From Desulfobacterales bacterium CG2_30_60_27 (GTDB lineage Bacteria; Desulfobacterota; Desulfobulbia; Desulfobulbales; CG2-30-60-27): 35,975 bases of DNA. The first letter of the stretch is position 1, and the number at the start of each line of letters is the position of its first letter. The stretch spans positions 1,913-37,887 of the forward strand of contig MNYK01000033.1 in NCBI GenBank assembly GCA_001873115.1, in the 5' to 3' direction. Position numbers and translations under genes: made by a program. Positions 5,896 through 20,767 of this stretch are shown in pieces. The notes under the pieces were generated by a model that was not told the DNA's origin, made no database searches, and worked only from the letters and a program-made list of their open reading frames with translations.

Positions 5896-8523
5896 TTAGA
5901 GCGACCGTTGATTGTAGAGCACGTCCCACAAGGGGATGCGAACCCCGGCATCGAAGCTGTTGAGCCAGTCCACAAAAGCAACCAGCCGGCACCGGGCGGC
6001 ATTACGCTCCGCGCCTTTCAACTCCTTATTCATGTTTCTTTCAATGTTGTAGACAAACAAAGCCCGCCACTTGAGACAGGACATGGCATCGAGAAGCGAG
6101 GCGCCAAGCCCGGAAAGCCTTTTTTCCTGCTCGCGCATCGCCAGAAATTCATTGAAGCGGTAAAACGAGCCGACATGGATTAGCCCTTCCTGTAGCCAGG
6201 CGCGAATTTCCGTTCGGCAGTCAAGGAGACAGTCAAAGTTATTCCACTTCACGGTGGCGTTAAAGGCGGTGATGCTATTTCGTCCGGCGTTCTTGGCAGC
6301 GGCCAGGGACTCCTCGGCATCCTTGGCCAACCGTTCCACCGGCACATGTGGTTTATGTACCGTTATACCCGCCGAAAAGTGAATGTCGGGGTTTTGACAG
6401 CAATACGCCGCAAACCGCTGGCGAAGGTGGGCCGCCAAGTCGGCCAAACGGTTCCAGGGGCCGATCAAAAAGAGGTCATCGCCGCCGGCAAAGACGGTGT
6501 ACACATCCCGGAACTCCTCCGTATTGGCCAACAAGTGCGGCAGATAGAGGGTGAAGAAAAAATTGAGTTGTCGGCTCAAGGTGGCGATCCGGGAAATGGT
6601 GTAACGATCCTCTTGCAGGCCATAGCCAAACAGGGCGCCCAAATTATCAATATCCGCCTTGAGCACGCCAATGGCGGCTATACCTTGATGCTTCTTACCA
6701 TCCGGGTTTTGGTTCAAGGCCTTACTGGCGATATGGGCAAAGGTCTTGGGACGGCCTTCCTTGATATCGTCAACCAGTTCCAGCTTTTTCTCCTCCGATG
6801 CCCTGCCCGCCAAGAGCCGATCGTCATGCTCGTCTTCTGGCCGATACACCGGCACATAGCCATTGATCAAACGGACAGCGGTCTGGTTGTCCAAGGTGCC
6901 ATCCGCCTGGGCGCTCAGGGTGAAGAGATGCAGGAGTTTGCCCTGGCGAGCGGGGTTTGGATGTTCGTCAGACGTGAATGAGACATTATACTTGCCGAAA
7001 ATCGGCATGGTCAAACATTCACGGGCAGGCAACGGGTGGCCGGTTTCCCAGATCGCCAAACGATTGCCCTTGACCAGACTAGTCCCCAGCATGACATGAT
7101 CGCGGCACACCCGGCAGGCCGAGGTATCGCCATGCAGCCAGGCCTTATCCTTTTCCACCGCCGGGTGGGATGGCCTCTTGCCGCAGAGGGGGCAGAGCTT
7201 ACTTGCCAAGTCATTGCGAAAACTTTCAAGATAACCGGGCACCACGCCGCCGTAACGGTCGAGATCAATCTTTGCCCCTTTTCGCTTGTCCATATTGTCG
7301 CAGTGCTTTTGCCAGAGACCGTGAAAACCGCCTCGTAAAAAATTAGCCGGAGAGGCTGGAGTACTGGAAAACCCCATACTGCTTTGGCCCAGGGAGATAT
7401 CGAAAAGCCACTGATTGACCTCTGCCTCCACGTCGCGAGTCGCTACTCTGGAAGCCTCGGTGTTCGGCATCAGCACGGTAAACTTGCCCGCCGCATTCAA
7501 AATAACGGAAAGAAAGGTGAGATCAGCGCGACGGTAGAGCATGTCGGCCGCCAGTTCGGAAAAAAGAGAAACGGCAAAGGAACGCCCCCGGAGCAGCTTG
7601 GATCGGTATCGTTGCGTGTCGCCGCCTCCGGCAAAAATGAAATCCTGAATGCCATAGAAGTCACCGGTGACCAGCAAGAATTTTTCTTCCTGCTCCGTGC
7701 TCACCGCCGTGCTGTTCATGGTGTCGCGGTCAGCATGATACAGATAGATGGCGCTAGCCAGAGCCGCGGTGGTGCGGCAATGGTCATACAGTGAAATATC
7801 ATGTACCACGTTTTTGACGCGTGCCGCTGGGATGGAGGAGGTGTATGTCTGCAGAAGCGAATCAAAATGCTCGGCCCACAGGCTAAGACTATCTTGGGTG
7901 TGCCAGAGGGAGCGGAGCCCTGCGATAAAGGCGTCGAACAATTTCCGATACTCGGCGTCCGCCTCGGCCTTGGTGATTTTCCCTTCCCTTTCAGTTGCCG
8001 GAAAGATGGCAGCGCTGCTCAATGGCGCAAGCGGATAGCGACAGGAAAAGTCTGCTGCAGTGGTAAATTTTCTTTTTTTGCCGGGACTGATGATCTCGAT
8101 CTCTTCCAAGACAGGCAACAGGCGAGTGCTTTTGAACTCCTGGAATGGAATAGAGTCGCCTTTGGCAAAGGTCGCCCGGTCAAGCCCGCTGGAAATGCAG
8201 TCCGCCTCGGTGATAATGCGTTGCATGGCGCTTTCCGGTTTGTGGTGACAGGCCGCCAATTTTTGGAAAGTGTCGCCCGATTCACCCCCGCCCCACTTGG
8301 GATCGTTTAATTTCGTGGGCAGGGACGCTGCCAATTGCTCAATAAAGGCCGCCGTAAACATGGCGTGCTGATGGCTGTACCCGCCGCCGTGATGGGCCGT
8401 CGGCTGAAAAATAGCCTCGTTGTTCTCACGGAAACCTGGTGGCAGCTCAAGGCAGCCTTGCGCGAACTTCCCGATATCGTGCAACAGCCCGGCCAGGGCG
8501 ATTTTCAGAACCGTGTCGTTCAT
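5896..8523 (-). CDS. cas10: Cas10/Csm1, type III-A signature subunit (HD nuclease and cyclic oligoadenylate synthase)
   Basis: This 875-aa protein is the large subunit of the Csm complex. The N-terminal HD domain has 'LLHDIGKF' with His15-Asp16. The first Palm domain carries 'GDFYGIQDFIF'. A zinc ribbon is visible as CPLC (444-447) and CRVC (470-473). The second Palm domain has an intact GGDD at 680-683 ('FAGGDDLFLIG'), the motif that converts ATP to cyclic oligoadenylates in active homologues. Both enzymatic activities therefore look intact. The start ATG at 8523 has GAGAGGG a few bases upstream. The two CARF genes upstream are the expected receivers of its signal. Length is in the upper normal range. 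Confidence 0.96.
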   Translation of the reverse strand: MNDTVLKIALAGLLHDIGKFAQGCLELPPGFRENNEAIFQPTAHHGGGYSHQHAMFTAAFIEQLAASLPTKLNDPKWGGGESGDTFQKLAACHHKPESAMQRIITEADCISSGLDRATFAKGDSIPFQEFKSTRLLPVLEEIEIISPGKKRKFTTAADFSCRYPLAPLSSAAIFPATEREGKITKAEADAEYRKLFDAFIAGLRSLWHTQDSLSLWAEHFDSLLQTYTSSIPAARVKNVVHDISLYDHCRTTAALASAIYLYHADRDTMNSTAVSTEQEEKFLLVTGDFYGIQDFIFAGGGDTQRYRSKLLRGRSFAVSLFSELAADMLYRRADLTFLSVILNAAGKFTVLMPNTEASRVATRDVEAEVNQWLFDISLGQSSMGFSSTPASPANFLRGGFHGLWQKHCDNMDKRKGAKIDLDRYGGVVPGYLESFRNDLASKLCPLCGKRPSHPAVEKDKAWLHGDTSACRVCRDHVMLGTSLVKGNRLAIWETGHPLPARECLTMPIFGKYNVSFTSDEHPNPARQGKLLHLFTLSAQADGTLDNQTAVRLINGYVPVYRPEDEHDDRLLAGRASEEKKLELVDDIKEGRPKTFAHIASKALNQNPDGKKHQGIAAIGVLKADIDNLGALFGYGLQEDRYTISRIATLSRQLNFFFTLYLPHLLANTEEFRDVYTVFAGGDDLFLIGPWNRLADLAAHLRQRFAAYCCQNPDIHFSAGITVHKPHVPVERLAKDAEESLAAAKNAGRNSITAFNATVKWNNFDCLLDCRTEIRAWLQEGLIHVGSFYRFNEFLAMREQEKRLSGLGASLLDAMSCLKWRALFVYNIERNMNKELKGAERNAARCRLVAFVDWLNSFDAGVRIPLWDVLYNQRSL

Positions 8524-8695
8524 GGTTTTCCCTCTCCCCTGTTTTCTGGTTTATCTTTTCTGGCATACTGCCATTGCAGTTGTTTTTCCGCCACCTCGGA
8601 AACATTGCAACCGGTCTCATCCTTGTCGGTGAAGCGCCTGGCGGCGTGGCCTATCACCCGCGGAGCGGAGGTCCAGGGGGCATGACAGGCTGTGC

Positions 8696-8745
8696 TTTAC
8701 AGACGCCGTAGCGCCGCCCATAATAAGGGTGGCACATAATATGGG
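8696..8745 (+). promoter_or_regulatory. Promoter and possible operator of the orphan vapB-like gene
   Basis: TTTACA (8696-8701) and CATAAT (8719-8724) are 17 bases apart on the plus strand. CCCATA (8717-8722) and TATGGG (8740-8745) form an inverted repeat over the -10 region. This would suit a ribbon-helix-helix autorepressor. Confidence 0.5.
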
Positions 8746-8759
8746 AGACGGAGGGCGTC

Positions 8760-8987
8760 ATGACCAACATCACCTTGAGCGTTGATGAGACCATTATCAA
8801 AAAAGTCCGCAAGATCGCCATCGAGAAAAATACCTCCCTGACCGCCATGGTCCGGGAATATCTGGAACAGATGGCGGCGCGGGACGGGGCGGAAAAACAG
8901 CGGCGCCTCGAATCGTTGCGCAAAAGCCTTGCCCTCCTGAGCCGGGACATGGGGGGAACGCTCCTGGCGCAGGGAGGAGCTCTATGA
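8760..8987 (+). CDS. Orphan ribbon-helix-helix antitoxin (VapB-like)
   Basis: This 75-aa protein resembles antitoxins that pair with PIN toxins. 'MTNITLSVDETIIKKVRKIA' is a typical ribbon-helix-helix strand and helix, 'NTSLTAMVREYLEQMA' the second helix. The C-terminal 'LRKSLALLSRDMG' would contact a toxin. The start has GGAGGG 7-8 bases upstream and its own promoter. The stop is arranged as ATGA (8984-8987), the usual overlap with a vapC start, but the frame that follows shows no PIN motifs and runs into the 3' end of the csm6-like gene. It is the only plus-strand gene inside the cas cluster. I infer its toxin has been deleted. Confidence 0.75.
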   Translation: MTNITLSVDETIIKKVRKIAIEKNTSLTAMVREYLEQMAARDGAEKQRRLESLRKSLALLSRDMGGTLLAQGGAL

Positions 8988-9053
8988 CACCCGTACGCCG
9001 ACCAGCAGCCCGGCCAGGGTCAGTTGAAGCGCGATGTCCGGTGCCTTCTCCTC

Positions 9054-10379
9054 TTACCACCCGCAACAAACTATTGCACCTGTTGCAACATTGCAGGCAC
9101 CTGGCCCTGGGCCAACCGTTTCTTTTGTTCCAGAAAACGCTACATCAAATCTTGGAAAGACTGGCAAGTCCGCAGGGTCAAACAGCTTAAGGGTGAGGAC
9201 AAATTCCCGCAGACTTTGAAAGGCGTTTTGTCCGATACTCTGGAAGCCATGGGCCAGGTAGGAGTCATTTCGTGCCTTTTGGATGTTTTTGAATTTCTGC
9301 TCATGCTGGCTGAAGGTGCGCCCCAGTTCATCGCCCAGGGCCTCCAGCAGCCGGAAGGCCGCTGCCTGGGAAATTTTTATCTGGCCGTCCGGGGCAGCGT
9401 ATCGCTTGATGTATTCAGCACGCACTGTTTCCGGGATACGGGTTCTGTCCACGTTGCTGGTGTCGATGGACCAGGCTGTGACAAGTCGAGCCTGGGCCGC
9501 CATTTCCACCACCCGATAGAGACGGAGCACGGCATCATCGATCTTGCCTTCCTGAAAACGGCGTTCAGCATTGGCATAGAGGTCCAGCAGACACAAACTG
9601 ATGGGGTTCTTCTTTTTGTCTTCCGTTAATTTTTGTAAAAAAGGAAGCAGCTTCAAGGTGGCAAGGGCTGGCTGCCGAAAGAAAATATCGTCGAGCTCGG
9701 CCAGTTCCTCAAGGCGGGCGCGACTAAAGCGCTGCTGCGCCTCCGAGTGCCGGAAGAGATCCCAAAGCTGAAAGCCTTCCACCATAAAGCCGAGCTTCTC
9801 GTAGCGGCTCGGGAAGCGGACATTTTTTCCCTTAAGCCCTGCTATCCGTTCTTGGGCGGCCGTAAACTGAAACTGGTTGAAAAGCAGGGCGATATCCCGC
9901 CTGGCCTCAATCCCCATGATATCCCACGGATTGAGGCTGCGGCGCACCTCTTCGGATCCGTCCTTGACAATGCCTAGCCCTTCCTTGGTTCGCTCCCTGC
10001 CGCCCACATAGGAAAAGGAAAACCCATGAGAAACCGCGGCCAGGGTGAGGGCCGCGGTCATGTTCTTGGTGCCGCCCGTATAATCAACCATCACCTCGCT
10101 GCCGGGGTATCCTTTGGCAAGCACCCGTTGGACCGCCTCTTCAGCCTTACCGTAACAGTGGACAAGGTCATTCACATCATCCACCAGGGTCTGCTCGAAG
10201 GAGGCCAGCCGCCCTGATTTTTCTTTGGCATCCCGGAGGCATTCAGGAATTTTGGCACAGCTTTCCTGCGAGGCCAGAAAGGAGATGAATTCCGGCCCGC
10301 AGGCGCAAATGGATGCCACGATCGGCTCCGTAGTACCGCCTACGGAAATGATCATGGCCTTCTTTTGGTGCTCTGTCAT
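9054..10379 (-). CDS. CARF-HEPN ribonuclease, Csm6-like (TIGR02710 family)
   Basis: This 441-aa protein is an ancillary effector of type III CRISPR immunity. The N-terminal CARF domain has 'IISVGGTTEPIVASI' and the ligand-loop motif 'VDYTGGTKNMTAAL' (DYTGGTK at 99-105), the signature of cyclic oligoadenylate sensors in this family. The C-terminal half is helical and contains 'KARNDSYLAHG' with Arg370-x6-His377, matching the HEPN RNase motif R-x4-6-H. It should cut RNA non-specifically when bound by the Cas10 product. The last ~25 residues are Gly/Ala/Cys-rich, unlike a HEPN terminus, and end next to the orphan antitoxin, which suggests a disturbed 3' end. It lies 34 bases downstream of the NE0113-family gene. 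Confidence 0.88.
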   Translation of the reverse strand: MTEHQKKAMIISVGGTTEPIVASICACGPEFISFLASQESCAKIPECLRDAKEKSGRLASFEQTLVDDVNDLVHCYGKAEEAVQRVLAKGYPGSEVMVDYTGGTKNMTAALTLAAVSHGFSFSYVGGRERTKEGLGIVKDGSEEVRRSLNPWDIMGIEARRDIALLFNQFQFTAAQERIAGLKGKNVRFPSRYEKLGFMVEGFQLWDLFRHSEAQQRFSRARLEELAELDDIFFRQPALATLKLLPFLQKLTEDKKKNPISLCLLDLYANAERRFQEGKIDDAVLRLYRVVEMAAQARLVTAWSIDTSNVDRTRIPETVRAEYIKRYAAPDGQIKISQAAAFRLLEALGDELGRTFSQHEQKFKNIQKARNDSYLAHGFQSIGQNAFQSLREFVLTLKLFDPADLPVFPRFDVAFSGTKETVGPGPGACNVATGAIVCCGW

Positions 10380-10413
10380 GTGGGCCTCCGATATTTTTCA
10401 GCAGTTCTCTGAG

Positions 10414-11529
10414 TCATTCCTCCATCCTGATCCGGCCGCGGTCCAGCATCAGGCCGAAGCGGGTATCCGGTTTGCCGCCGACCGCGGCGATTTCCAGTTC
10501 CTTGACATGGGTTTGGCCAAACCGGCCCAGGATGTCCTGACGTATTTTGGATTTGTAACTGTTGAAGTTTTCGCGTGAGAGCCGGGCGATGCCGGTGTCG
10601 CTCATTTCCTTGAGGCGACAGCCGCCGATGATATGGCGATAGAGTTCGGTGATTTCGTCGTTGCCAAGCGCCTCGGTGGCCTCGATAAAACATGCGGTGC
10701 AATTGTGACAGGGCTGGTCCAGTTTGCAGCGGAGCTTGAGCCCGGTGAAAAAGGCATAGAGGGCCAGGCGGGCCGGATGCATATCGAGCTCAACGGCGCC
10801 GTAAACGATCTTGCCCGCGGCGAGATCCACGGTGAGCAGGCGGGGGGCGTCGCGGACCAGCGACTGCATGAGGTCGGCCGGCGGCCGTGGCCGGTCGAGC
10901 AGGCCGCGGTCCAGCCGGTCGCGGACCGAGACAAAGGGGATGGTGATGAGATGGATGGCGGCGTACCTGGTTTCCTTAAGCACGGGCTCATGCTTGCGGT
11001 CATACAGGGTGAGGCTGACCGACTCCCTGGGCGGGTACCAGAAGTCCGGGCACGACTCGAACTCCGGCGAGACGAGGACATGGTAAATGCGGTCCTGGGG
11101 CCGGCCATAAAGCTGGGCCGCCAGGCTCATGCAGGAGGTCATGGTCTTGCGGCCGCCGGCCACCAGGAAAAATACGGCCGTGCCCGGCTGGCTGGTAAAC
11201 TCAAAGGTCAGGCCAAGGCAGGTTTCGAGGAGGATTTCGTTGTCTTCGTCCGTCACGATGTCGTCAAGCTCGCGGCCATCCGGCCGCTGCAGGACGTGGA
11301 TGTTTTCAGGCCCGAACTGGATGGCGATATCAGGGCAGAATTCTTGGCGGAACTCCGCGAACACCCCGCCCGCCGGGGTCAGGAGGCGAGCGAGAATCTT
11401 CTCCCGCCCCGTCCGGGTGGTGATCACATGGATGGCATCAACCGTGCGGCCTTCGTGCAGAAGGGCGTAGAGGGCCTCGGTGATTACCTGGGGATTGAGC
11501 CCGGCAACCGCAAGCAGGATGTTTTTCAT
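10414..11529 (-). CDS. CRISPR-associated CARF protein, NE0113 family (TIGR02584)
   Basis: This 371-aa protein begins 'MKNILLAVAGLNPQVITEAL', the hallmark of the NE0113 family. The CARF ligand loop is 'FLVAGGRKTMTSCMSLAAQL' (121-140). A tight cysteine group follows at residues 268, 274, 277 and 280, probably a zinc site. The C-terminus ('NFNSYKSKIRQDI' ... 'TRFGLML') looks like a winged helix. Members of this family are annotated as ring nucleases that degrade cyclic oligoadenylate, or as CARF sensors; sequence alone does not decide between them. It starts 9 bases after the cas6 stop, so it is co-transcribed with it. Its base composition is visibly GC-richer than csm1-csm5. Confidence 0.85.
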   Translation of the reverse strand: MKNILLAVAGLNPQVITEALYALLHEGRTVDAIHVITTRTGREKILARLLTPAGGVFAEFRQEFCPDIAIQFGPENIHVLQRPDGRELDDIVTDEDNEILLETCLGLTFEFTSQPGTAVFFLVAGGRKTMTSCMSLAAQLYGRPQDRIYHVLVSPEFESCPDFWYPPRESVSLTLYDRKHEPVLKETRYAAIHLITIPFVSVRDRLDRGLLDRPRPPADLMQSLVRDAPRLLTVDLAAGKIVYGAVELDMHPARLALYAFFTGLKLRCKLDQPCHNCTACFIEATEALGNDEITELYRHIIGGCRLKEMSDTGIARLSRENFNSYKSKIRQDILGRFGQTHVKELEIAAVGGKPDTRFGLMLDRGRIRMEE

Positions 11530-11538
11530 CTGGCGTCT

Positions 11539-12474
11539 TTATATGTGTACCTGAATCTGGCCCAGCCCGAAGGATGTCTGTTTTCCCAGGTGGGTTTTCT
11601 CGCAATATTTCAGCAAGGGAACATATTCATCGAGGTTCCCTTCGTAGCGCAGGGTGCCGAGCAGCCCCCCCATGAGCATGGCTGTCTTTTGTCGGTTACT
11701 GTAGCGTTCCAGCTCGACCCATTGACAGGTACTATGGCCGAGGGTGACATTTTGTGCCCGCCTGACAAGACCAGCATAATCCAGAGCTGGCTCGCCTTCG
11801 CCGTAAGCGTTTTCCAGGGAGGAGATTCTTCTGAGGGCTGCCCTGACCAGCATGTGGAAGGGCAGGGAGGTTTGAAAGTGGTTGTCCTGTTTCAAGCGCA
11901 GGGGGGTGATGAGGTCGATGGCCAGTGAGGTTGCCCCGCCATGGGCGGCAGGCTGGACGGACAAGGGAATAAGGGGGCTGGCATGGCGCAGGACTTTCGT
12001 GTCGGCGCGGTAAATCTCTTCGCCATCCCTGGTGACGGCAACCAGGGAGAACCTGCCAAGGCCATTGGCGCTGCTCCGGCCCAGGCCCAACCCGCCAAGG
12101 TTCTCGATCGCATACACGATGTGCGGCAGATACTCGTTGGCCTTGCCGAAAAGGCCAAGGCCGAATTCGAATTCGTCGCCAGCCGCGAATTCCTGCCGGG
12201 CGTCTTGGGGCACCATGAAAACATAGGGGTGGGGCCGGGCCGCGATGCGGGCGGCATCTTCCTGTCCGGCGCGGGAGGCGGGTTGGGTTTCAAAGATGAC
12301 GGCGTAGGCGCAACTGGAGCCGAGCAGGCAATCCTGGCAGGTCTGGCGTCTGAGGGCGCAAGCGACCTTCCGCAAGGCATGGCCAAAACCGCCCCGCAGC
12401 GTGGAACCTTTAAAGGCCGGCAGATGCGCGGGCGTCTGCAAGCGGCAGTGACAATGATAGGTTCCGACTAACAT
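11539..12474 (-). CDS. cas6: Cas6 pre-crRNA processing endoribonuclease (RAMP)
   Basis: This protein of about 311 aa would cut CRISPR repeat RNA to release crRNAs for the Csm complex. The N-terminal part has 'PAFKGSTLRGGFGHALR' and a cysteine-rich insert ('TCQDCLLGSSCAY'). The middle has 'ENLGGLGLGRSSANGLGRF', and the C-terminus ends in the glycine-rich Cas6 loop 'KQTSFGLGQIQVHI'. The start is uncertain: an in-frame TTG at 12486 gives four more residues, and neither start has a well-placed ribosome-binding site. A Cas6 here implies a repeat array somewhere in the genome, though none is in this window. It leads the block cas6-NE0113-csm6. Confidence 0.88.
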   Translation of the reverse strand: MLVGTYHCHCRLQTPAHLPAFKGSTLRGGFGHALRKVACALRRQTCQDCLLGSSCAYAVIFETQPASRAGQEDAARIAARPHPYVFMVPQDARQEFAAGDEFEFGLGLFGKANEYLPHIVYAIENLGGLGLGRSSANGLGRFSLVAVTRDGEEIYRADTKVLRHASPLIPLSVQPAAHGGATSLAIDLITPLRLKQDNHFQTSLPFHMLVRAALRRISSLENAYGEGEPALDYAGLVRRAQNVTLGHSTCQWVELERYSNRQKTAMLMGGLLGTLRYEGNLDEYVPLLKYCEKTHLGKQTSFGLGQIQVHI

Positions 12475-12576
12475 TCTCCCACTCAAAAGGAAAAAATGGT
12501 TAGAGTCAATAACTTTTTATCATAATTGAAGGCGAAAGCGAACCATGCGAGTTTTTGCGAGTCCGTCACGTTTGTG

Positions 12577-12676: not shown

Positions 12677-13996
12677 ATGAAAGACCTGTTGACATTTCCC
12701 AAGGGCGGCGTGCATCCGCCGGCCGCCAAGCACCTGACGGCGGGGCTGGCCATTGAGGTGATGCCGGTTGCCGATGAGCTGGATATCTTCGTTGGCCAGC
12801 ATATCGGGGCGCCGTGCACCCCCACGGTGGCGAAGGGCGATAGCGTGGCCGAGGGCGACGTCATCGGCACGGTGACCAAGGGGCTCGGCACCCCCATTCA
12901 CGCGCCGGTGGCCGGCAAGGTCAAGGCGATTGGCGCGGTCGCCCATCCCATGCGGGTTACCGCACCGGCCATCACCCTGCAAACCGACCATGAGGCCCCC
13001 GCCCGGGTCTATACGCGTAAAGACTGGGCCGGTCTGGACCGGGCCGCACTGCTGGCCGCCATCAACCAGGGTGGCATCGTCGGGGTTGGCGGGGCGGGTT
13101 TCCCCACCCACGCCAAGCTGTCGCCGCCGCCCGAGGCCAAGATCGACACCCTGATTTTAAATGGCGCCGAGTGCGAGCCGTACATCACCGCCGACCACCG
13201 GCAGATGCTGGAGCACGCCGCCGAGATCGTCGAAGGCGCCAGGATCATCATGGCGGTACTCGGGGTCTCCCGCTGTCATATCGGCATCGAGGCCAACAAG
13301 CCCGACGCCATCGCGGCCATGCAAAAGGCGGTGCGCGAGAATACCGTTGGCGCTGGCACCATCACGGTGGATGTGCTCAAGGTCAAATACCCGCAAGGCT
13401 CCGAGAAACAGCTCATTCAGAGCATCACCGGCCGCAAGGTGCCCGGTTTTGCCCTGCCCTCGGCGGTCGGCGTGGTGGTCCACAACGTCAGCACCACCAA
13501 GGCCATCTTCGATGCCGTGGTTCTGGGCAAGCCCCTCTACGAAAAGGTGGTGACCATCTCCGGCAAGGGGATCAGGCGGCCGGCCAACCTGCTGGTCAGG
13601 GTTGGCACCCGGCTGAACGAGATCGTCGCCTATCTGGGCGGGGTGACGCCGGAGCTGGCCAAGATCGTCTTCGGCGGCCCGATGATGGGTTTCGCCGCCT
13701 CTTCCCTGGAGATTCCCGTCACCAAGACCACCTCCTCGGTGTTGTTTTTGGCCGAGGACGAGATTGATTCCACCCCGCATTCCCAGTGCATCCGCTGCGG
13801 CTGGTGCCTGGCGGCCTGCCCCATGGGATTGGAGCCCAAGGAAATCGCCATTTACGTGGAGGCGGGGCGCGAAAAGGACACCGAGCCCTTCGGGGTGTTT
13901 GAATGTTTTGAGTGCGGGTGCTGCGCCTATGTCTGCCCGGCCAAGCGGCCCCTGGTCCAGTTTATCCGGCTGGCCAAGCTGCGGGCGAGAAAGTAG
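12677..13996 (+). CDS. rnfC: Rnf complex subunit RnfC (ferredoxin:NAD+ oxidoreductase)
   Basis: This 439-aa peripheral subunit carries the NAD(H) and FMN site of the Rnf complex. The biotinyl-like N-terminal region is visible ('GTPIHAPVAGKVKAIG'). It is followed by the flavin and nucleotide region 'GVGGAGFPTHAKL' and 'LNGAECEPYITADHR'. Two 4Fe-4S motifs follow near the C-terminus: 'CIRCGWCLAACPMGL' and 'CFECGCCAYVCPAKRP'. The length is near the minimal form of the family. It opens an operon in the order C-D-G-E-A-B. The ATG at 12677 has AAGGG 4 bases upstream. Confidence 0.96.
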   Translation: MKDLLTFPKGGVHPPAAKHLTAGLAIEVMPVADELDIFVGQHIGAPCTPTVAKGDSVAEGDVIGTVTKGLGTPIHAPVAGKVKAIGAVAHPMRVTAPAITLQTDHEAPARVYTRKDWAGLDRAALLAAINQGGIVGVGGAGFPTHAKLSPPPEAKIDTLILNGAECEPYITADHRQMLEHAAEIVEGARIIMAVLGVSRCHIGIEANKPDAIAAMQKAVRENTVGAGTITVDVLKVKYPQGSEKQLIQSITGRKVPGFALPSAVGVVVHNVSTTKAIFDAVVLGKPLYEKVVTISGKGIRRPANLLVRVGTRLNEIVAYLGGVTPELAKIVFGGPMMGFAASSLEIPVTKTTSSVLFLAEDEIDSTPHSQCIRCGWCLAACPMGLEPKEIAIYVEAGREKDTEPFGVFECFECGCCAYVCPAKRPLVQFIRLAKLRARK

Positions 13997-14040: not shown

Positions 14041-15081
14041 ATTAACACGCCAGAGACAGATAAGGAAAAGCCGGGCCCCCTGCCGGGGCTGCTCAAGGTT
14101 TCGATCTCCCCGCATGTGAAGAGCGGCGAATCGGTGGCCAGAATCATGTGGACCGTGGTGGCCTGCCTGGTGCCGCCCCTGGTTTTCTCGGTGTTCATCT
14201 TCGGCATTCGAACCCTGATCATCACGGCGGTGAGCGTGGTGAGTTGCGTGGCCGTGGAGGCCATCACCCAGAAGTGCTTGAAACGGCCGGTGACGGTAAA
14301 GGACGGCAGCGCCGTGATCACCGGCATGTTGCTGGCCTTTGTCATTCCGCCGGGCGTGCCGCTCTGGCTGCCGATCCTGGGCTCGGTCATGGCCGTTTAC
14401 GTTGGCAAGCACCTGCTGGGCGGTATCGGCTTCAATATCTTCAATCCCGCCCTCTTGGGCCGCGCCTTTCTGATGGCCAGCTTTCCCGTGGCCATGACCT
14501 CGGCCTGGCTGCCGCCGTTGCGTGATCTGGCCATCTTCTCCTATCTCGGCACCCCGATCGATGCCCTGACCACCGCCACGCCGCTGGCCGTACTGAAAGG
14601 GCAGGGCATGGCCGCCTTCACCGCCCAGTTCGGCGCCGCCCCCAACGTCTACACCGATTTTTTCCTGGGCTGGCGGCCCGGCTGCATCGGCGAAACCTCG
14701 GGGCTGCTGCTGGTGCTGGGCGGCCTGTATCTGCTGTATCGCGGTTACATTACCTGGCACATCCCGGTCACCGTGCTGGCGACCATCGCCCTGCTGACCC
14801 GGGTGGCCGGCGGTGACCCGCTCCTGGCGGTGCTGGCCGGTGGCGCCTTGCTGGGCGCCTTCTTCATGGCCAACGATTACGTCACCAGCCCCACCAGCAA
14901 GATGGCGCAGCTTATTTACGGGGTAGGGGTGGGAGCGCTTACCGTGCTCATTCGCCTGAAGGGCGGCTATCCAGAGGGCATCTGCTACGCCATCCTGCTC
15001 ATGAACCCGCTGAGCCCGGTGCTCGACCGCTGGTTCAAGCCCAAGCGTTTCGCCCCGTTGCAGGGAGGTGCGAAGAAATGA
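14041..15081 (+). CDS. rnfD: Rnf complex membrane subunit RnfD, with probable ATT start codon
   Basis: This 346-aa integral membrane protein carries covalently bound FMN and belongs to the ion-pumping core. The residues 'LLKVSISPHVKSGESVARIM', conserved near the N-terminus of RnfD, are encoded upstream of the first GTG (14116), so the gene must begin earlier. An in-frame stop at 14026 limits the start. The only position with a good ribosome-binding site (AAGGAG, 7 bases away) is ATT at 14041; two in-frame CTG codons lack one. The likely FMN-attachment Thr is Thr180 in 'LTTATPLAVL', where many homologues have SGAT or TGAT. Many hydrophobic helices follow. The stop overlaps rnfG by 4 bases. Confidence 0.93.
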   Translation: MNTPETDKEKPGPLPGLLKVSISPHVKSGESVARIMWTVVACLVPPLVFSVFIFGIRTLIITAVSVVSCVAVEAITQKCLKRPVTVKDGSAVITGMLLAFVIPPGVPLWLPILGSVMAVYVGKHLLGGIGFNIFNPALLGRAFLMASFPVAMTSAWLPPLRDLAIFSYLGTPIDALTTATPLAVLKGQGMAAFTAQFGAAPNVYTDFFLGWRPGCIGETSGLLLVLGGLYLLYRGYITWHIPVTVLATIALLTRVAGGDPLLAVLAGGALLGAFFMANDYVTSPTSKMAQLIYGVGVGALTVLIRLKGGYPEGICYAILLMNPLSPVLDRWFKPKRFAPLQGGAKK

Positions 15082-15986
15082 AGGACATCTCCACCATCAT
15101 CTTCCGCCTGACCCTTACCTGTCTGGTGGCCGCTTTGATCATGGGCGGCAGCTTCATCGTCACCAACCGCGCCAAACAGCACAACCAGCAGGTCAATGAG
15201 CAGAAGGTCATGCTGAGCCTGCTGGGCTATTCGGCCGCCAAGCCGGCCCCCGCCTCCCTGGCCCTGCATCCGGTGTACCGTTATCTGGTCACCGAGCAGG
15301 ACGTCCAAACCTTGGGCTACCTGGTGCCGGTGGCGGGCGGGGCCACGGATGCCTTTGCCCTGGTGACCATCGCTCTGGACGGCAAGTTTGTTGCCCGGCA
15401 TGACCTGCGGCTTGCGCCGGAGAAGGCGGAACAGGCGAAAGAGCGGCTGCAGGCGGTGCAGACGGCCGTTGGTTCTGGGAAGACCATCCAGTACGCCGAT
15501 CAGACCATCATCGTCACGGACAATGGCCAGCGCCAGGCCTATCTGCTGCCCGGCGAGTTCCCGGGCTTCAAGACCTTTGTCAAGGTTATCCTGGCGCTGG
15601 ATCCCGGCTTTACCGTCCTCGGCCTGGAGATCATGGAGCACGAGGAGGATCCTGGACTGGGCGGCGAGATCGTCCAGGATTACTTCAAGAATCAGTTCCG
15701 CGGCAAGCCGTATGAGGCCTTGAAAAAGCTCGGGGTGGTCAAGGAGCCCCTGCCCGACGAGTACCGTGGCGCCCTCGAGGCCGGCAAGACCGGCCGGCTG
15801 GGGCCGGAGGAGGTGGCGCGGATCCAGGAGCAGTACAAGGATCACGATATCTATGCCCTCACCGGCGCCACCATTTCCAGCCGCTCGGTGACCAACGGCG
15901 TCAAGGGTATTGTCAAAAAATTCGCCTATCGGATCGCGTTTTTGGATCGGGTCCTGGCGGAACAGCGGATAGTGGTGCCTTTCTGA
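15078..15986 (+). CDS. rnfG: Rnf complex subunit RnfG (covalent FMN protein)
   Basis: This 302-aa protein has one N-terminal membrane helix ('LTLTCLVAALIMGGSFIV') and a periplasmic FMN-binding domain. The flavinylation motif is 'DIYALTGATISSRSVT', with TGAT at residues 262-265; the Thr of this motif is where ApbE attaches FMN through a phosphoester. 'EHEEDPGLGGEIVQDYF' is another family segment. It overlaps rnfD by 4 bases and has GGGAGG upstream of its ATG. The transferase it needs is encoded at the end of the same operon. Confidence 0.95.
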   Translation: MKDISTIIFRLTLTCLVAALIMGGSFIVTNRAKQHNQQVNEQKVMLSLLGYSAAKPAPASLALHPVYRYLVTEQDVQTLGYLVPVAGGATDAFALVTIALDGKFVARHDLRLAPEKAEQAKERLQAVQTAVGSGKTIQYADQTIIVTDNGQRQAYLLPGEFPGFKTFVKVILALDPGFTVLGLEIMEHEEDPGLGGEIVQDYFKNQFRGKPYEALKKLGVVKEPLPDEYRGALEAGKTGRLGPEEVARIQEQYKDHDIYALTGATISSRSVTNGVKGIVKKFAYRIAFLDRVLAEQRIVVPF

Positions 15987-16015
15987 GCAAGGGCCGTTAA
16001 CCCGGAGGCGTGCGC

Positions 16016-16630
16016 GTGGCTACGGACAAGTCGAATCTGCAACTGGTCGTCAACGGCATATTGAACGAGAACCCGATCTTTCGGCTGGTGCTCTCCATGT
16101 GCCCGGCGGTGGGCATCAGCACCACGGTGATGAACGGCATCATGCTGGGGGTGGCGGTGCTCTTCGTGCAGGTTTTTTCCAGTTGCACCATCTCCCTGGT
16201 GAAGAACTGGATTCATCCGCGCATCCGCATCCCCACCTACACCCTGACCATCGCCACCTGGGTGACGGTCATCGACATGGTGCTGGCCGCCTACTTGCCC
16301 GAGGCCTACGCCAAGATGGGCATCTTCGTGAAACTGATCGTGGCCTTTGCCATCATCACCATGCGGCTGGAGATGTTCGCCAGCAAGGAAAACCTGACCC
16401 ATTCTTTTTGGGACGGGGTCGGCATGGGTCTGGGCTTCATGGTCGGCATGATGGCCATCGGTTTTGTCCGCGAGCTGCTTGGGCTGGGCACCATCCTGGG
16501 TTATGACGTCCTGGGCTTCCGGCCGCTGCTCTTCTTCATCCTGCCGTTGGCCGGGTTTTTCTGCGTTGGTCTGATGATGGGCTTTTTCAACTATATCGAA
16601 ACGCGCTACAAGCGCGTTAAACAGGGCTGA
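16016..16630 (+). CDS. rnfE: Rnf complex membrane subunit RnfE
   Basis: This 204-aa hydrophobic protein is one of the two homologous inner-membrane subunits (with RnfA) that hold a membrane-embedded iron-sulfur cluster in Rnf/Nqr complexes. 'NGILNENPIFRLVLSMCPAV' is the signature, including the Cys in the first helix region. 'ILGYDVLGFRPLLFFILPLAGFF' lies near the end. I chose GTG at 16016 because GGAGG ends 7 bases upstream; the GTG at 16010 is only 1 base from that site. It is followed by rnfA after 3 bases. Confidence 0.95.
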   Translation: MATDKSNLQLVVNGILNENPIFRLVLSMCPAVGISTTVMNGIMLGVAVLFVQVFSSCTISLVKNWIHPRIRIPTYTLTIATWVTVIDMVLAAYLPEAYAKMGIFVKLIVAFAIITMRLEMFASKENLTHSFWDGVGMGLGFMVGMMAIGFVRELLGLGTILGYDVLGFRPLLFFILPLAGFFCVGLMMGFFNYIETRYKRVKQG

Positions 16631-16633
16631 ATC

Positions 16634-17590
16634 ATGCATCGACTGACCATGTTAATGCGCGCGCTGGCCGTCCTGACCCTGGCTCTGCTGCTGCCGGTTT
16701 TGGCGCAGGCGGACGGACTCATCGCCGGCAAGTCCTTTGGCAATGACCGCGAGATTGTCGTCACCTTCAAGGCCCCGGTGGACCAGGCCGTCTTTGCCGA
16801 CCCTGCCCATTACCTGGTCTATGAGGAGTCAGACCCGGACATCCGTCTGGAGCTCGCCGACGTGCGGCTTGACAGCACCGGCAAGATCGCCTTCCTCGGC
16901 TTCAAGGAGCCGCTGAACACCACCCGGCCGCATGTGGTGTCCATGATCGATCTGCCGGCCGCGGTTACCGGCCGCACGGTGGAAACCTTCCGGGTGGCCA
17001 AGCCCTATCTGGGCTATCTGTTGTCCATTCTGGTGAGCGCCCTGCTTATCAACAACTTCGTGTTCACCAAGTACCTCGGCCTGTGCGTCTTCTTCGGGAC
17101 CTCGAAACGGCGGGATACGGCCAAGGGCATGGGGGTCACCTTTACCATCGTCATGGTGGTGAGCGCCCTCATGAGCTGGTTCTTTTACCAGTTCGTCATG
17201 AAGCCCCATGGCCTCGATTTCCTGCAGATCGTGGTTTTCATCGGCCTGGTGTCCCTTACCGTGCAAGCGGTGGATACCATTCTCCGCAAGGTCAATCCGG
17301 TGTTGTTCAACGCCTTCGGCGTTTACCTCGTGCTGGTCATCGCCAACTGCGTCATCATTGCCGTGCCGCTTATCATGGCCAACAACGAGTACAACTTTCT
17401 GGAGACCTTCATGCTGGCGCTGGGTGCCGGCGGTGGCTTTCTGCTCGCCCTCTACATGATGGCCTCGGTGCGGGAGCGGATGGAGCTGGCCAGGGTGCCG
17501 AAGTCGTTCAAGGGGGTGCCCATCGCCTTTATCGTGGCTGGGCAGTTTGCCCTGGCCTTTCTGGGGTTCTCCGGTTTGAGCCTCTTCTAA
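16634..17590 (+). CDS. rnfA: RnfA with an extra secreted N-terminal domain
   Basis: The C-terminal ~190 residues are a normal RnfA membrane subunit. It starts at 'YLLSILVSALLINNFVFTKY' (about 128-147), with the cluster-binding candidate Cys151 in 'LGLCVFFG', and ends in 'QFALAFLGFSGLSLF'. RnfA is usually about 190 aa, but this one is 318. The added N-terminus has a signal peptide ('ALAVLTLALLLPVLAQADG', about 10-28). A beta-rich domain of about 95 residues follows ('EIVVTFKAPVDQAVFADPAH' ... 'EPLNTTRPHVVSMIDLPAAV'), resembling a bacterial Ig-like (SbsA/Big_5-type) fold. A periplasmic N-terminus fits the expected topology of RnfA. AGGG lies 7 bases before the ATG. The domain's function is unknown. 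Confidence 0.93.
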   Translation: MHRLTMLMRALAVLTLALLLPVLAQADGLIAGKSFGNDREIVVTFKAPVDQAVFADPAHYLVYEESDPDIRLELADVRLDSTGKIAFLGFKEPLNTTRPHVVSMIDLPAAVTGRTVETFRVAKPYLGYLLSILVSALLINNFVFTKYLGLCVFFGTSKRRDTAKGMGVTFTIVMVVSALMSWFFYQFVMKPHGLDFLQIVVFIGLVSLTVQAVDTILRKVNPVLFNAFGVYLVLVIANCVIIAVPLIMANNEYNFLETFMLALGAGGGFLLALYMMASVRERMELARVPKSFKGVPIAFIVAGQFALAFLGFSGLSLF

Positions 17591-17625: not shown

Positions 17626-18501
17626 ATGGATCCGACATTAATCAAGCTGGCCTTGGGCGGTATCGCCCTGCTTGGCTGCATTGGCCTGTTCTTTGGCATC
17701 GGGCTGGCCCTGGCCGCCCATCGGTTCAAGGTGGAGGTCAACCCCAAGATCGAGGCGGTTTTGCACTCCCTGGCCGGCGCCCAGTGCGGCGGCTGCGGTT
17801 ATGCCGGCTGCGAGGGCTATGCCATCGCCGTGGTCAATGACCCGGAGGTGCCTCCCAATCTGTGCTTTCCCGGCAAGGAACCGGTGGCGGCCAAGGTGGC
17901 CGAGATCACCGGCAAGAAGGTGACGGCCGTGGAGGATATGATCGCCACGGTGCGCTGCTCCAGGATCGAGGGGCGGGTCAGCCACAAGCATGCATATATC
18001 GGCTTTGCCTCCTGCACCGCGGCCAATCTGGGGTTCGGCGGCCCATCGGCCTGCCAGTATGCCTGTATCGGTCTGGGCGAGTGCGCCAGCAGTTGCCCGT
18101 TTGACGCCATCACCATGCGGGATGGCTTTCCGCAGGTCAATCCGGACAAGTGCGTGGCCTGCGGCGCCTGCGTCAAGGTCTGCCCCAAGCAGATCATCGA
18201 ACTCATGACTCTGCGGGCCCGGGTGTATGTTCCATGCAGCAGCAAGGATCTGGGCAAGCAGGTGATGAAGGTCTGCCAGGTCGGCTGCATCGCCTGCCAG
18301 ATGTGCGTGAAGAAGTGTCCGGCCGAGGCGGTGACCTATGCCGGCGGGCTCATCAAGATCGATCACAAGAAGTGCCTGGAGTATGGACCCGGGTGCGGCG
18401 AGGTCTGCGTGGAGAAATGCCCCCGCCATATCTTCAGGAAGTATGAAGGCCGTAAGGTGCTGGCCCGCAAGGGCCGCATTACCCTCGATAACGTAGCATG
18501 A
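17626..18501 (+). CDS. rnfB: Rnf complex iron-sulfur subunit RnfB
   Basis: This 291-aa protein brings electrons from ferredoxin into the complex. It has an N-terminal membrane anchor ('LALGGIALLGCIGLFFGIGL'). A four-cysteine Fe-S domain follows ('CGGCGYAGCEGYAIAV' with the last Cys in 'PPNLCFPG'). Several 4Fe-4S ferredoxin motifs come after it: 'CIGLGECASSCPFDAI', 'CVACGACVKVCPKQII', 'CQVGCIACQMCVKKCP' and 'CLEYGPGCGEVCVEKCP'. The number of cluster motifs is at the high end for the family. The ribosome-binding site is weak. rnfB is the last structural gene of the operon. Confidence 0.95.
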   Translation: MDPTLIKLALGGIALLGCIGLFFGIGLALAAHRFKVEVNPKIEAVLHSLAGAQCGGCGYAGCEGYAIAVVNDPEVPPNLCFPGKEPVAAKVAEITGKKVTAVEDMIATVRCSRIEGRVSHKHAYIGFASCTAANLGFGGPSACQYACIGLGECASSCPFDAITMRDGFPQVNPDKCVACGACVKVCPKQIIELMTLRARVYVPCSSKDLGKQVMKVCQVGCIACQMCVKKCPAEAVTYAGGLIKIDHKKCLEYGPGCGEVCVEKCPRHIFRKYEGRKVLARKGRITLDNVA

Positions 18502-20091: not shown

Positions 20092-20176
20092 TGCATACAA
20101 AGTAATGGTGTTTCATGGGCAAATTAACTGGCAAGCAGAAGGATAAACACAAATCAGGAAAATGGAGGAACAAATC

Positions 20177-20767
20177 ATGTGTAAACGCATGGTGATTATT
20201 CTTGCAATTTTGTTGGCCGTAGGTTTTTCTTCCCCAGTCAAAGCCACTCCCTATACCTTTCAGCCTAATCCTGTCAATCTCTACAATCTGGACCATGGCC
20301 AGTACTACAAGTGGGGAATTAATTGGACTGTCCCGAATGGGGAAGTCATTACTGGGGCAACCCTGTTTTTCAATGATATCCGTAATTGGGACAGCAACCC
20401 CAATGATCTCTGGGTCCATCTCCTGCCTGCCGCGACTTCCGGCGTGACTGTAAAATGGGACGGCCAGGCAAATGGCGATGCTTTTGACGGCCAGGGTACT
20501 CTCTTGGCGCACTATCATAATCTTTCCAATCATGCCCAGGATATCACTTACACCTTTCTTGACCAAGACTTGGCGGCTCTCATCAGTGCCGTGGCCGACG
20601 GTAATTTTGGTCTCGGTTTCGACCCTGACTGTCATTACTGGAACAACGGGGTAACCCTAACCATTGAGGCTGGTTCCAACCCGGTGCCCGAGCCGGCCAC
20701 TATGTTTCTTTTTGGCACCGGCCTCGTAGGTTTTGCCGGGTTTAGCCTGAAAAGGATCAAAAAGTAG
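20177..20767 (+). CDS. PEP-CTERM sorting domain protein
   Basis: This 196-aa secreted protein has an N-terminal signal peptide ('MVIILAILLAVGFSSPVKA'). The C-terminal sorting signal 'NPVPEPATMFLFGTGLVGFA' is followed by 'GFSLKRIKK', the three-part PEP-CTERM layout of motif, helix and basic tail. Exosortase would recognise and process it. The ~150-residue body is beta-rich with many Asn, Asp and Trp residues and matches nothing I can name. The ATG at 20177 has GGAGG 8 bases upstream; the ATG at 20162 is too early. No exosortase gene is in this window. The gene has its own sigma-54-type promoter and its own terminator. Confidence 0.88.
   Translation: MCKRMVIILAILLAVGFSSPVKATPYTFQPNPVNLYNLDHGQYYKWGINWTVPNGEVITGATLFFNDIRNWDSNPNDLWVHLLPAATSGVTVKWDGQANGDAFDGQGTLLAHYHNLSNHAQDITYTFLDQDLAALISAVADGNFGLGFDPDCHYWNNGVTLTIEAGSNPVPEPATMFLFGTGLVGFAGFSLKRIKK

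Follow-up and report, generated by a model that had tools for sequence, protein, structure and literature searches.

The rnf operon of Desulfobacterales bacterium CG2_30_60_27 encodes an RnfA with an immunoglobulin (Ig)-like domain in front of its membrane core, together with an RnfE from which one cluster-ligating cysteine is missing, and judged by sequence this combination is a new form, homologous to Rnf. We regard it as nearly certain that an exported Ig domain is part of a remodelled Rnf core in this organism. The operon lies in the window, by which we mean the whole stretch of DNA that was analysed (35,975 nucleotides). A first-pass annotation of this DNA had drawn attention to the extension of RnfA; going beyond it, we find the larger oddity one gene upstream of rnfA, in the RnfE without its cluster-ligating cysteine.

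All six Rnf subunits are encoded on the + strand in the order C-D-G-E-A-B, followed by apbE, between positions 12677 and 19601. Profile searches identified rnfC (12677 to 13996), the first gene of the operon, and rnfB (17626 to 18501), while profile matches identified rnfD (14116 to 15081), rnfG (15078 to 15986; 302 aa, with the FMN-threonine motif TGATIS) and rnfE (16010 to 16630; 206 aa), the last of which also aligned with the RnfE proteins of the clade with extended RnfA. The ATG of the extended rnfA (16634 to 17590; 318 aa; PF02508, E 8.5e-45) lies three bases downstream of the rnfE stop codon, and the last gene encodes an ApbE-like flavin transferase (PF02424; 18498 to 19601). RnfE and RnfA of this operon were the only PF02508 proteins found in the genome, which is 93% complete, so that, as far as the assembly goes, the operon encodes its sole Rnf/Nqr-type pump. 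On sequence grounds, the window RnfA belongs to an Rnf complex that is divergent but complete, a putative ferredoxin:NAD+ oxidoreductase coupled to Na+ or H+ transport. Type III CRISPR genes adjoin the operon in divergent orientation (5896 to 12486, − strand) and encode Cas10, a CARF-HEPN Csx1/Csm6, a CARF5 Csx1-like protein and Cas6. At 20162 to 20767 (+) lies a gene for a 201-aa protein with a hydrophobic N-terminal segment and the C-terminal tail VPEPATMFLFGTGLVGFAGFSLKRIKK, which we take to be PEP-CTERM-like.

Solved RnfA chains have 190 to 191 aa, and their alignment to the window RnfA starts only at residue 128 to 130; the Pfam Rnf-Nqr match is similarly limited to residues 130 to 315, leaving about 95 residues extra. 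The protein begins with a predicted signal peptide (residues 1 to 26; 16634 to 16711) consisting of the n-region MHRLTMLMR, a hydrophobic core with a hydropathy peak at residue 15, and an AQA site, with cleavage predicted between AQA and the following D. Then come the Ig-like domain (residues 27 to 121; 16712 to 16996), a linker, and the first transmembrane helix, starting at about residue 125 to 129 (17006 to 17018). By alignment to the solved chains, the core comprises six transmembrane helices (17018 to 17587) and keeps both RnfA cluster ligands, Cys151 (17084 to 17086) and Cys239 (17348 to 17350). The first-pass description of a signal peptide and some 95 beta-rich residues ahead of the first Rnf helix was therefore borne out. 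Against PF02508 the window RnfA scored 153.3 bits (gathering cut-off, 23.8), and against the RnfA subfamily TIGR01943 it scored 196.6 bits, below the curated cut-off of 229.3. Because it falls short of TIGR01943 and its complex departs from the four-cysteine rule described below, we do not file the protein as a canonical RnfA, though it is homologous to Rnf.

A mis-called start or a lack of conservation had been named in the first-pass annotation as what would overturn the extension, and a search against relatives had been suggested as a check. A search with the whole protein gave matches in 25 of 58 genomes of the order. In 17 of these, the genome itself included, the match extended over the additional domain, with 60 to 91% identity in the 16 others, and the remaining 8 matched only in Nqr- or Rnf-like cores. 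In G001, a genome of the same genus, the N-terminal sequence of RnfA is identical to that in Desulfocapsa sp. IMS_BF-2 (L002, L031). The extension by itself, together with a motif pattern, was used to scan a collection of 84,980 species, which returned 84 relatives, from which 80 loci were kept. The Ig domain and the RnfA core lie in one reading frame in 78 of these 80 loci. Neither exception is a stand-alone domain gene: one (L099) lies on a frameshifted contig, on which the reading frames of rnfC, rnfD and rnfG are broken up as well, and in the other (L104) the contig stops within the ORF. In a codon comparison, the extension had a dN/dS of 0.05 to 0.40 in 14 of 14 pairs, compared to 0.013 to 0.055 for the RnfA core, indicating that it is translated and under selection, less tightly than the core. 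The homologues, the purifying selection and the fusion to RnfA together rule out a mis-called start or a chance open frame. It was also noted that at two loci, which may stem from a single organism present in two collections, one 580-codon frame with no internal stop spans both rnfE and the extended rnfA (L007, − strand; L053, from 550, + strand); this may be a natural RnfE-Ig-RnfA single polypeptide, or translation of rnfA may begin at an internal start.

The extension was next modelled alone from 77 aligned rows, which gave a beta sandwich with a mean pLDDT of 92.2 and a pTM of 0.84; the model of the whole RnfA (16 rows; mean pLDDT 59.8) was good only in the Ig part. The closest solved structure was the S-layer protein SbsC (4uic; Z 13.6, rmsd 3.7, 99 aligned residues; Foldseek E 3.6e-6), followed by the Ig domain of the S-layer protein Sap (Z 12.3) and the copper carrier CopC (Z 8.5), whose likeness is one of fold alone. 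According to the model, then, the extension has a bacterial Ig-like fold, as the first-pass annotation had proposed. Big_5/SbsC-type Ig domains are known from secreted and surface proteins. Compared with this type (PF13205; 4uic, 2ra1), the RnfA domain has the same fold and a weak profile similarity: 52 of the 77 extended members matched PF13205 at E ≤ 1 (best, 1.9e-7), and the window protein had no match at that threshold. It differs from the SbsC and Sap domains in its fusion to a membrane subunit of a redox pump and in an EExDPDI loop (VYEESDPDIRL in the window, residues 62 to 72; 16817 to 16849). The family form of this loop, V-x-E-E-x-D-P-D-I, was not found in the aligned SbsC or Sap stretches. 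Its invariance in the 77-row alignment, which comprises 76 of the 80 loci (L092, L095, L099 and L104 were dropped), results partly from the search pattern, which contained the motif. In seven relatives found by profile (L184 to L190), E64, P68, D69 and I70 were kept, while E65 and D67 varied.

Of the 77 homologues, 67 have an AxA-type cleavage site according to a script, and those displayed had a hydrophobic segment at the N-terminus. A lipobox replaced the AxA site in L101, L106, L107 and L109, as judged by eye, and was visible also in L188 and L190; the N-terminus of L108 resembles an uncleaved anchor. In the core, the predicted inside loops carry on average 3.9, 2.1 and 3.0 lysines plus arginines, compared to 0.6, 0.05 and 0.13 in the outside loops (77 rows). 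By this distribution the RnfA core is oriented N-out, which agrees with section 14 of PMC12174285, where RnfA and RnfE are described as inverted in their arrangement, and the Ig domain accordingly stands on the periplasmic face. The periplasmic location given in the first-pass annotation is thus supported by the signal peptide and the loop charges, and the adjacency to RnfG that it assumed is expected from published structures.

In a sample of 395 genomes of the phylum, 13 had the Ig domain on RnfA. When the same genomes were ranked by the RnfA core alone, these 13 came first, with 60 to 100% identity, and all later matches had at most 48% identity and no domain. In a tree of 70 RnfA cores, from which the domain was excluded, a single branch (support 100/100) separated all 30 extended rows from the rest, and their stem measured 1.52 changes per column. 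By this phylogeny, the extended RnfA is a single clade with a long stem, centred on Desulfobulbales. Some genomes have a second, ordinary RnfA (G048, and also G157, G280, G320, G393 and G411, the latter being 5 of the 13). Two loci in the comparison set, L202 (by tree and motif) and L241 (by motif), look like Nqr rather than Rnf.

The membrane core of the clade is altered at several positions that are conserved outside it. Since some loci in the RnfA and RnfE alignments represent the same gene from two collections, distinct sequences were counted; two extended loci yielded no RnfE, and longer regions were used for the comparison loci, most of which were initially too short to include rnfE. According to passages of PMC11889175, C25 and C113 of RnfA and C25 and C108 of RnfE ligate the intramembrane [2Fe-2S] cluster in A. 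woodii, and mutants in these cysteines were inactive and did not grow. The window complex keeps three of the four, with alanine in place of RnfE C108. At this position (window residue 114), 88 of 89 distinct clade sequences have Ala and one has Thr, whereas Cys was found in all 49 non-extended RnfE/NqrD rows with a residue at this place in the alignment. Those rows include L204 to L206 of family f33, to which L180, the nearest non-extended RnfA in the core tree, also belongs. The surrounding stretch reads K108-LIV-A112-F113-A114 in the window (16331 to 16351, +), compared to P102-LIV-V106-N107-C108 in A. woodii: N107 is replaced by Phe (89/89 in the clade; Asn in 50/50 others), and the outer-gate P102 by Lys in 87 of 89. 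Around the retained cluster cysteine, S29-M-C31 (16094 to 16102, +), a clade-specific serine stands two residues before it (Ser in 89/89, versus Gly, A. woodii G23, in 50/50 non-extended sequences). For the V. cholerae homologue NqrD, part of PMC10643135 describes a single Cys-to-Ala exchange, C29A, as giving a variant without that cluster. With one of the four cluster cysteines missing, transmembrane electron transfer by the Rnf of this group of sulfur-cycling bacteria is therefore probably altered.

RnfA itself has an altered break in its fourth transmembrane helix, where V233, L234, V235, I236 and A237 (17330 to 17344, +) stand in place of A. woodii P107-L-I-T110-T111. P107 is Val in all 86 distinct clade sequences, versus Pro in 38 of 39 non-extended ones, and E88 is Asp in 86 of 86. 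Ile replaces T110 in 78 of 86 sequences, and Ala replaces T111 in equally many; in A. woodii, as stated in section 9 of PMC11889175, T110G abolished growth and T111G had an effect only at low Na+. The Ile-Ala pair is absent from 8 of 97 rows, including the basal L184 to L187 and L189, so that this part of the remodelling is not clade-wide. Since in the basal members at least one of the threonines is retained or valine is found instead, we infer that the domain and the cysteine loss arose on the stem, and that the threonine changes were later or partial.

RnfG is enlarged in the same operons. Its median length was 298 aa in extended loci (found in 74 of 75), compared to 198 aa in non-extended ones (51 of 53); medians are given because the lengths include split or over-long ORFs (L099, L058, L038), and some ORFs, such as those of L041, L040, L043 and L069, have upstream starts. 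Alignment to solved RnfG and NqrC places most of the additional residues in two stretches, one from the membrane helix to the flavin core and the other ahead of the FMN threonine. The covalent-FMN motif [ST]GAT.[ST] was present in 70 of the 74. RnfC, RnfD and RnfB of the window align to solved chains over most of their length and look ordinary; motif patterns for RnfD were too narrow to judge by, as they matched in only 11 of 51 non-extended loci. Covariation between the Ig domain and RnfG (the window and 64 of 75 loci, 11 being dropped for missing or short subunits) had a mean z of 0.31 with 1.1% of pairs above 3, barely above the cytoplasmic control, Ig domain against RnfC (0.18 and 0.86%). 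In ordinary Rnf operons of the phylum (L191 to L194 and L200), an RnfB of about 680 to 720 aa and a 123- to 130-aa ORF with four CXXCH motifs beside rnfC are often found; the Ig clade as a rule has neither. L109, the most divergent extended operon, has an RnfB-like ORF of 552 aa at 8875 (+) and another downstream, at 12563 (+).

The simplest joint reading of the enlarged RnfG, the altered cluster site and the position of the domain is a clamp or lid. We propose, with slightly more doubt than belief, that the Ig domain is a periplasmic clamp for the RnfG flavin domain near an altered membrane redox site. Attached at the N-terminal helix of RnfA, it would stand above the RnfA/RnfE vestibule, where RnfG docks; a passage of PMC9588780 names this helix as a site near RnfG at which solved Rnf and Nqr differ. 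RnfG/NqrC must move to bridge about 35 Å between RnfA/E and RnfD (PMC12174285, sections 14 and 15), and the energetics and driver of this movement are not understood according to section 15 of that 2025 review. The domain could clamp or guide the mobile flavin domain and keep RnfG near the membrane redox site. This would allow electrons to be transferred from a cluster other than the standard four-cysteine [2Fe-2S], one that may have three cysteines and another ligand, perhaps RnfE Ser29, or be of another type. Such a clamp could also change the gating of ion movement. That the domain gates the complex was one of two roles suggested in the first-pass annotation, and this one stands as a possibility, strengthened by the co-occurring longer RnfG and remodelled RnfA/RnfE core. 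Against a clamp, the sequence of the extension changes more quickly than that of the core, as could be expected of a tether under little constraint, and the enlargement of RnfG could be unrelated, since NqrC is also large while NqrE has no such domain. More doubtful still is that the clade represents a separate type of redox-driven ion pump derived from Rnf, with a three-cysteine cluster (with another ligand or of another type), RnfA Na+-path residues shed in most members, a lysine (K108) gained next to the outer gate of RnfE in nearly all, and the Ig domain and the enlarged RnfG forming a new periplasmic clamp that controls electron exit; such a pump may move H+ or use a different gating step.

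The fast evolution of the extension would suit a passive lid or assembly aid, which shields the vestibule or helps to insert the N-out first helix and has no catalytic part, as would the variety of N-termini (signal peptidase I sites, lipoproteins, an uncleaved anchor), suggesting that export is what counts. We consider this unlikely, because non-extended RnfA is inserted without such a domain, E64, P68, D69 and I70 persist in the deepest members, and the domain is still present in all 13 clade members that were picked out by the core alone. A part in metal or cation handling, in which the conserved acidic loop would serve as a metal site or gather cations where the RnfA/E path opens to the outside, would fit the EExDPDI loop of the extended-RnfA alignment, the similar fold of CopC, and the proposal in section 9 of PMC11889175 that acidic surface residues of A. 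woodii RnfA and RnfG meet Na+. Among the acids, however, only E64 and D69 are fixed in deeper members, and the Na+-path residues are changed, not reinforced, in most members, making this reading improbable.

The other role suggested in the first-pass annotation was docking of a periplasmic cytochrome, which we widen to electron carriers of the periplasm in general, multihaem cytochromes among them. The domain is located in the periplasm, and the entry 5n1t is titled as CopC, which has a related fold, in complex with flavocytochrome c. Gene neighbourhoods gave the idea no support: of 64 extended loci (those of the 80 with at least 9 kb), 2 had an ORF with at least two CXXCH motifs in the vicinity of the operon, as did 1 of 7 further ones, compared to 8 of 13 comparison loci (12 Rnf and one Nqr). 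We therefore rate docking as very improbable, and give the same low rating to an envelope anchor, through which Rnf would be attached to peptidoglycan, to a polymer resembling an S-layer or to some other protein of the envelope, in the manner of the Ig-like domains in surface proteins. S-layer Ig domains are indeed the closest folds, but there is one short domain with a short linker to the membrane, and the fold class includes CopC and many others, so that the fold by itself gives no function.

The first-pass annotation could name no described version of such an RnfA, and in the open-access literature that was searched we likewise found no description of an RnfA with an Ig-like domain or N-terminal extension, or of an extended Rnf in Desulfobulbales, Desulfobulbaceae or member genera. 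A cable-bacterium genome paper mentions an Rnf complex (passage in PMC6976610), and according to the S9 Fig legend of a survey, Desulfobulbales have no Rnf (PMC10553843). The rnf operons present in cultured Desulfobulbales, for example Desulfofustis glycolicus DSM 9705 and Desulfobulbus elongatus DSM 2908, contradict this legend and correct the energy-metabolism map. The clade also bears on the question of what moves RnfG/NqrC between RnfA/E and RnfD.

Compared with known systems, the window complex has six subunits in common with the Rnf of A. woodii, Clostridium tetanomorphum and Azotobacter vinelandii (9eri, 7zc6, 8ahx) and shares with them the six-helix RnfA and RnfE, the FMN threonine of RnfG and the cluster motifs of RnfB and RnfC. 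It differs from these solved complexes in the Ig domain on RnfA, an RnfG about 100 aa longer, an Ala instead of RnfE C108, a Val and an Asp instead of RnfA P107 and E88, respectively, and, in most clade members, the replacement of T110 and T111 by Ile and Ala. The core (NqrE, NqrD and NqrC) of Na+-NQR is homologous, and the clade RnfG is similar in length to NqrC, which its N-terminal part resembles in this respect. The window operon, in contrast, has rnfC and rnfB instead of nqrA and nqrF, and NqrE has no Ig domain, with the cysteines kept in the 8 to 9 NqrE and NqrD rows that were compared.
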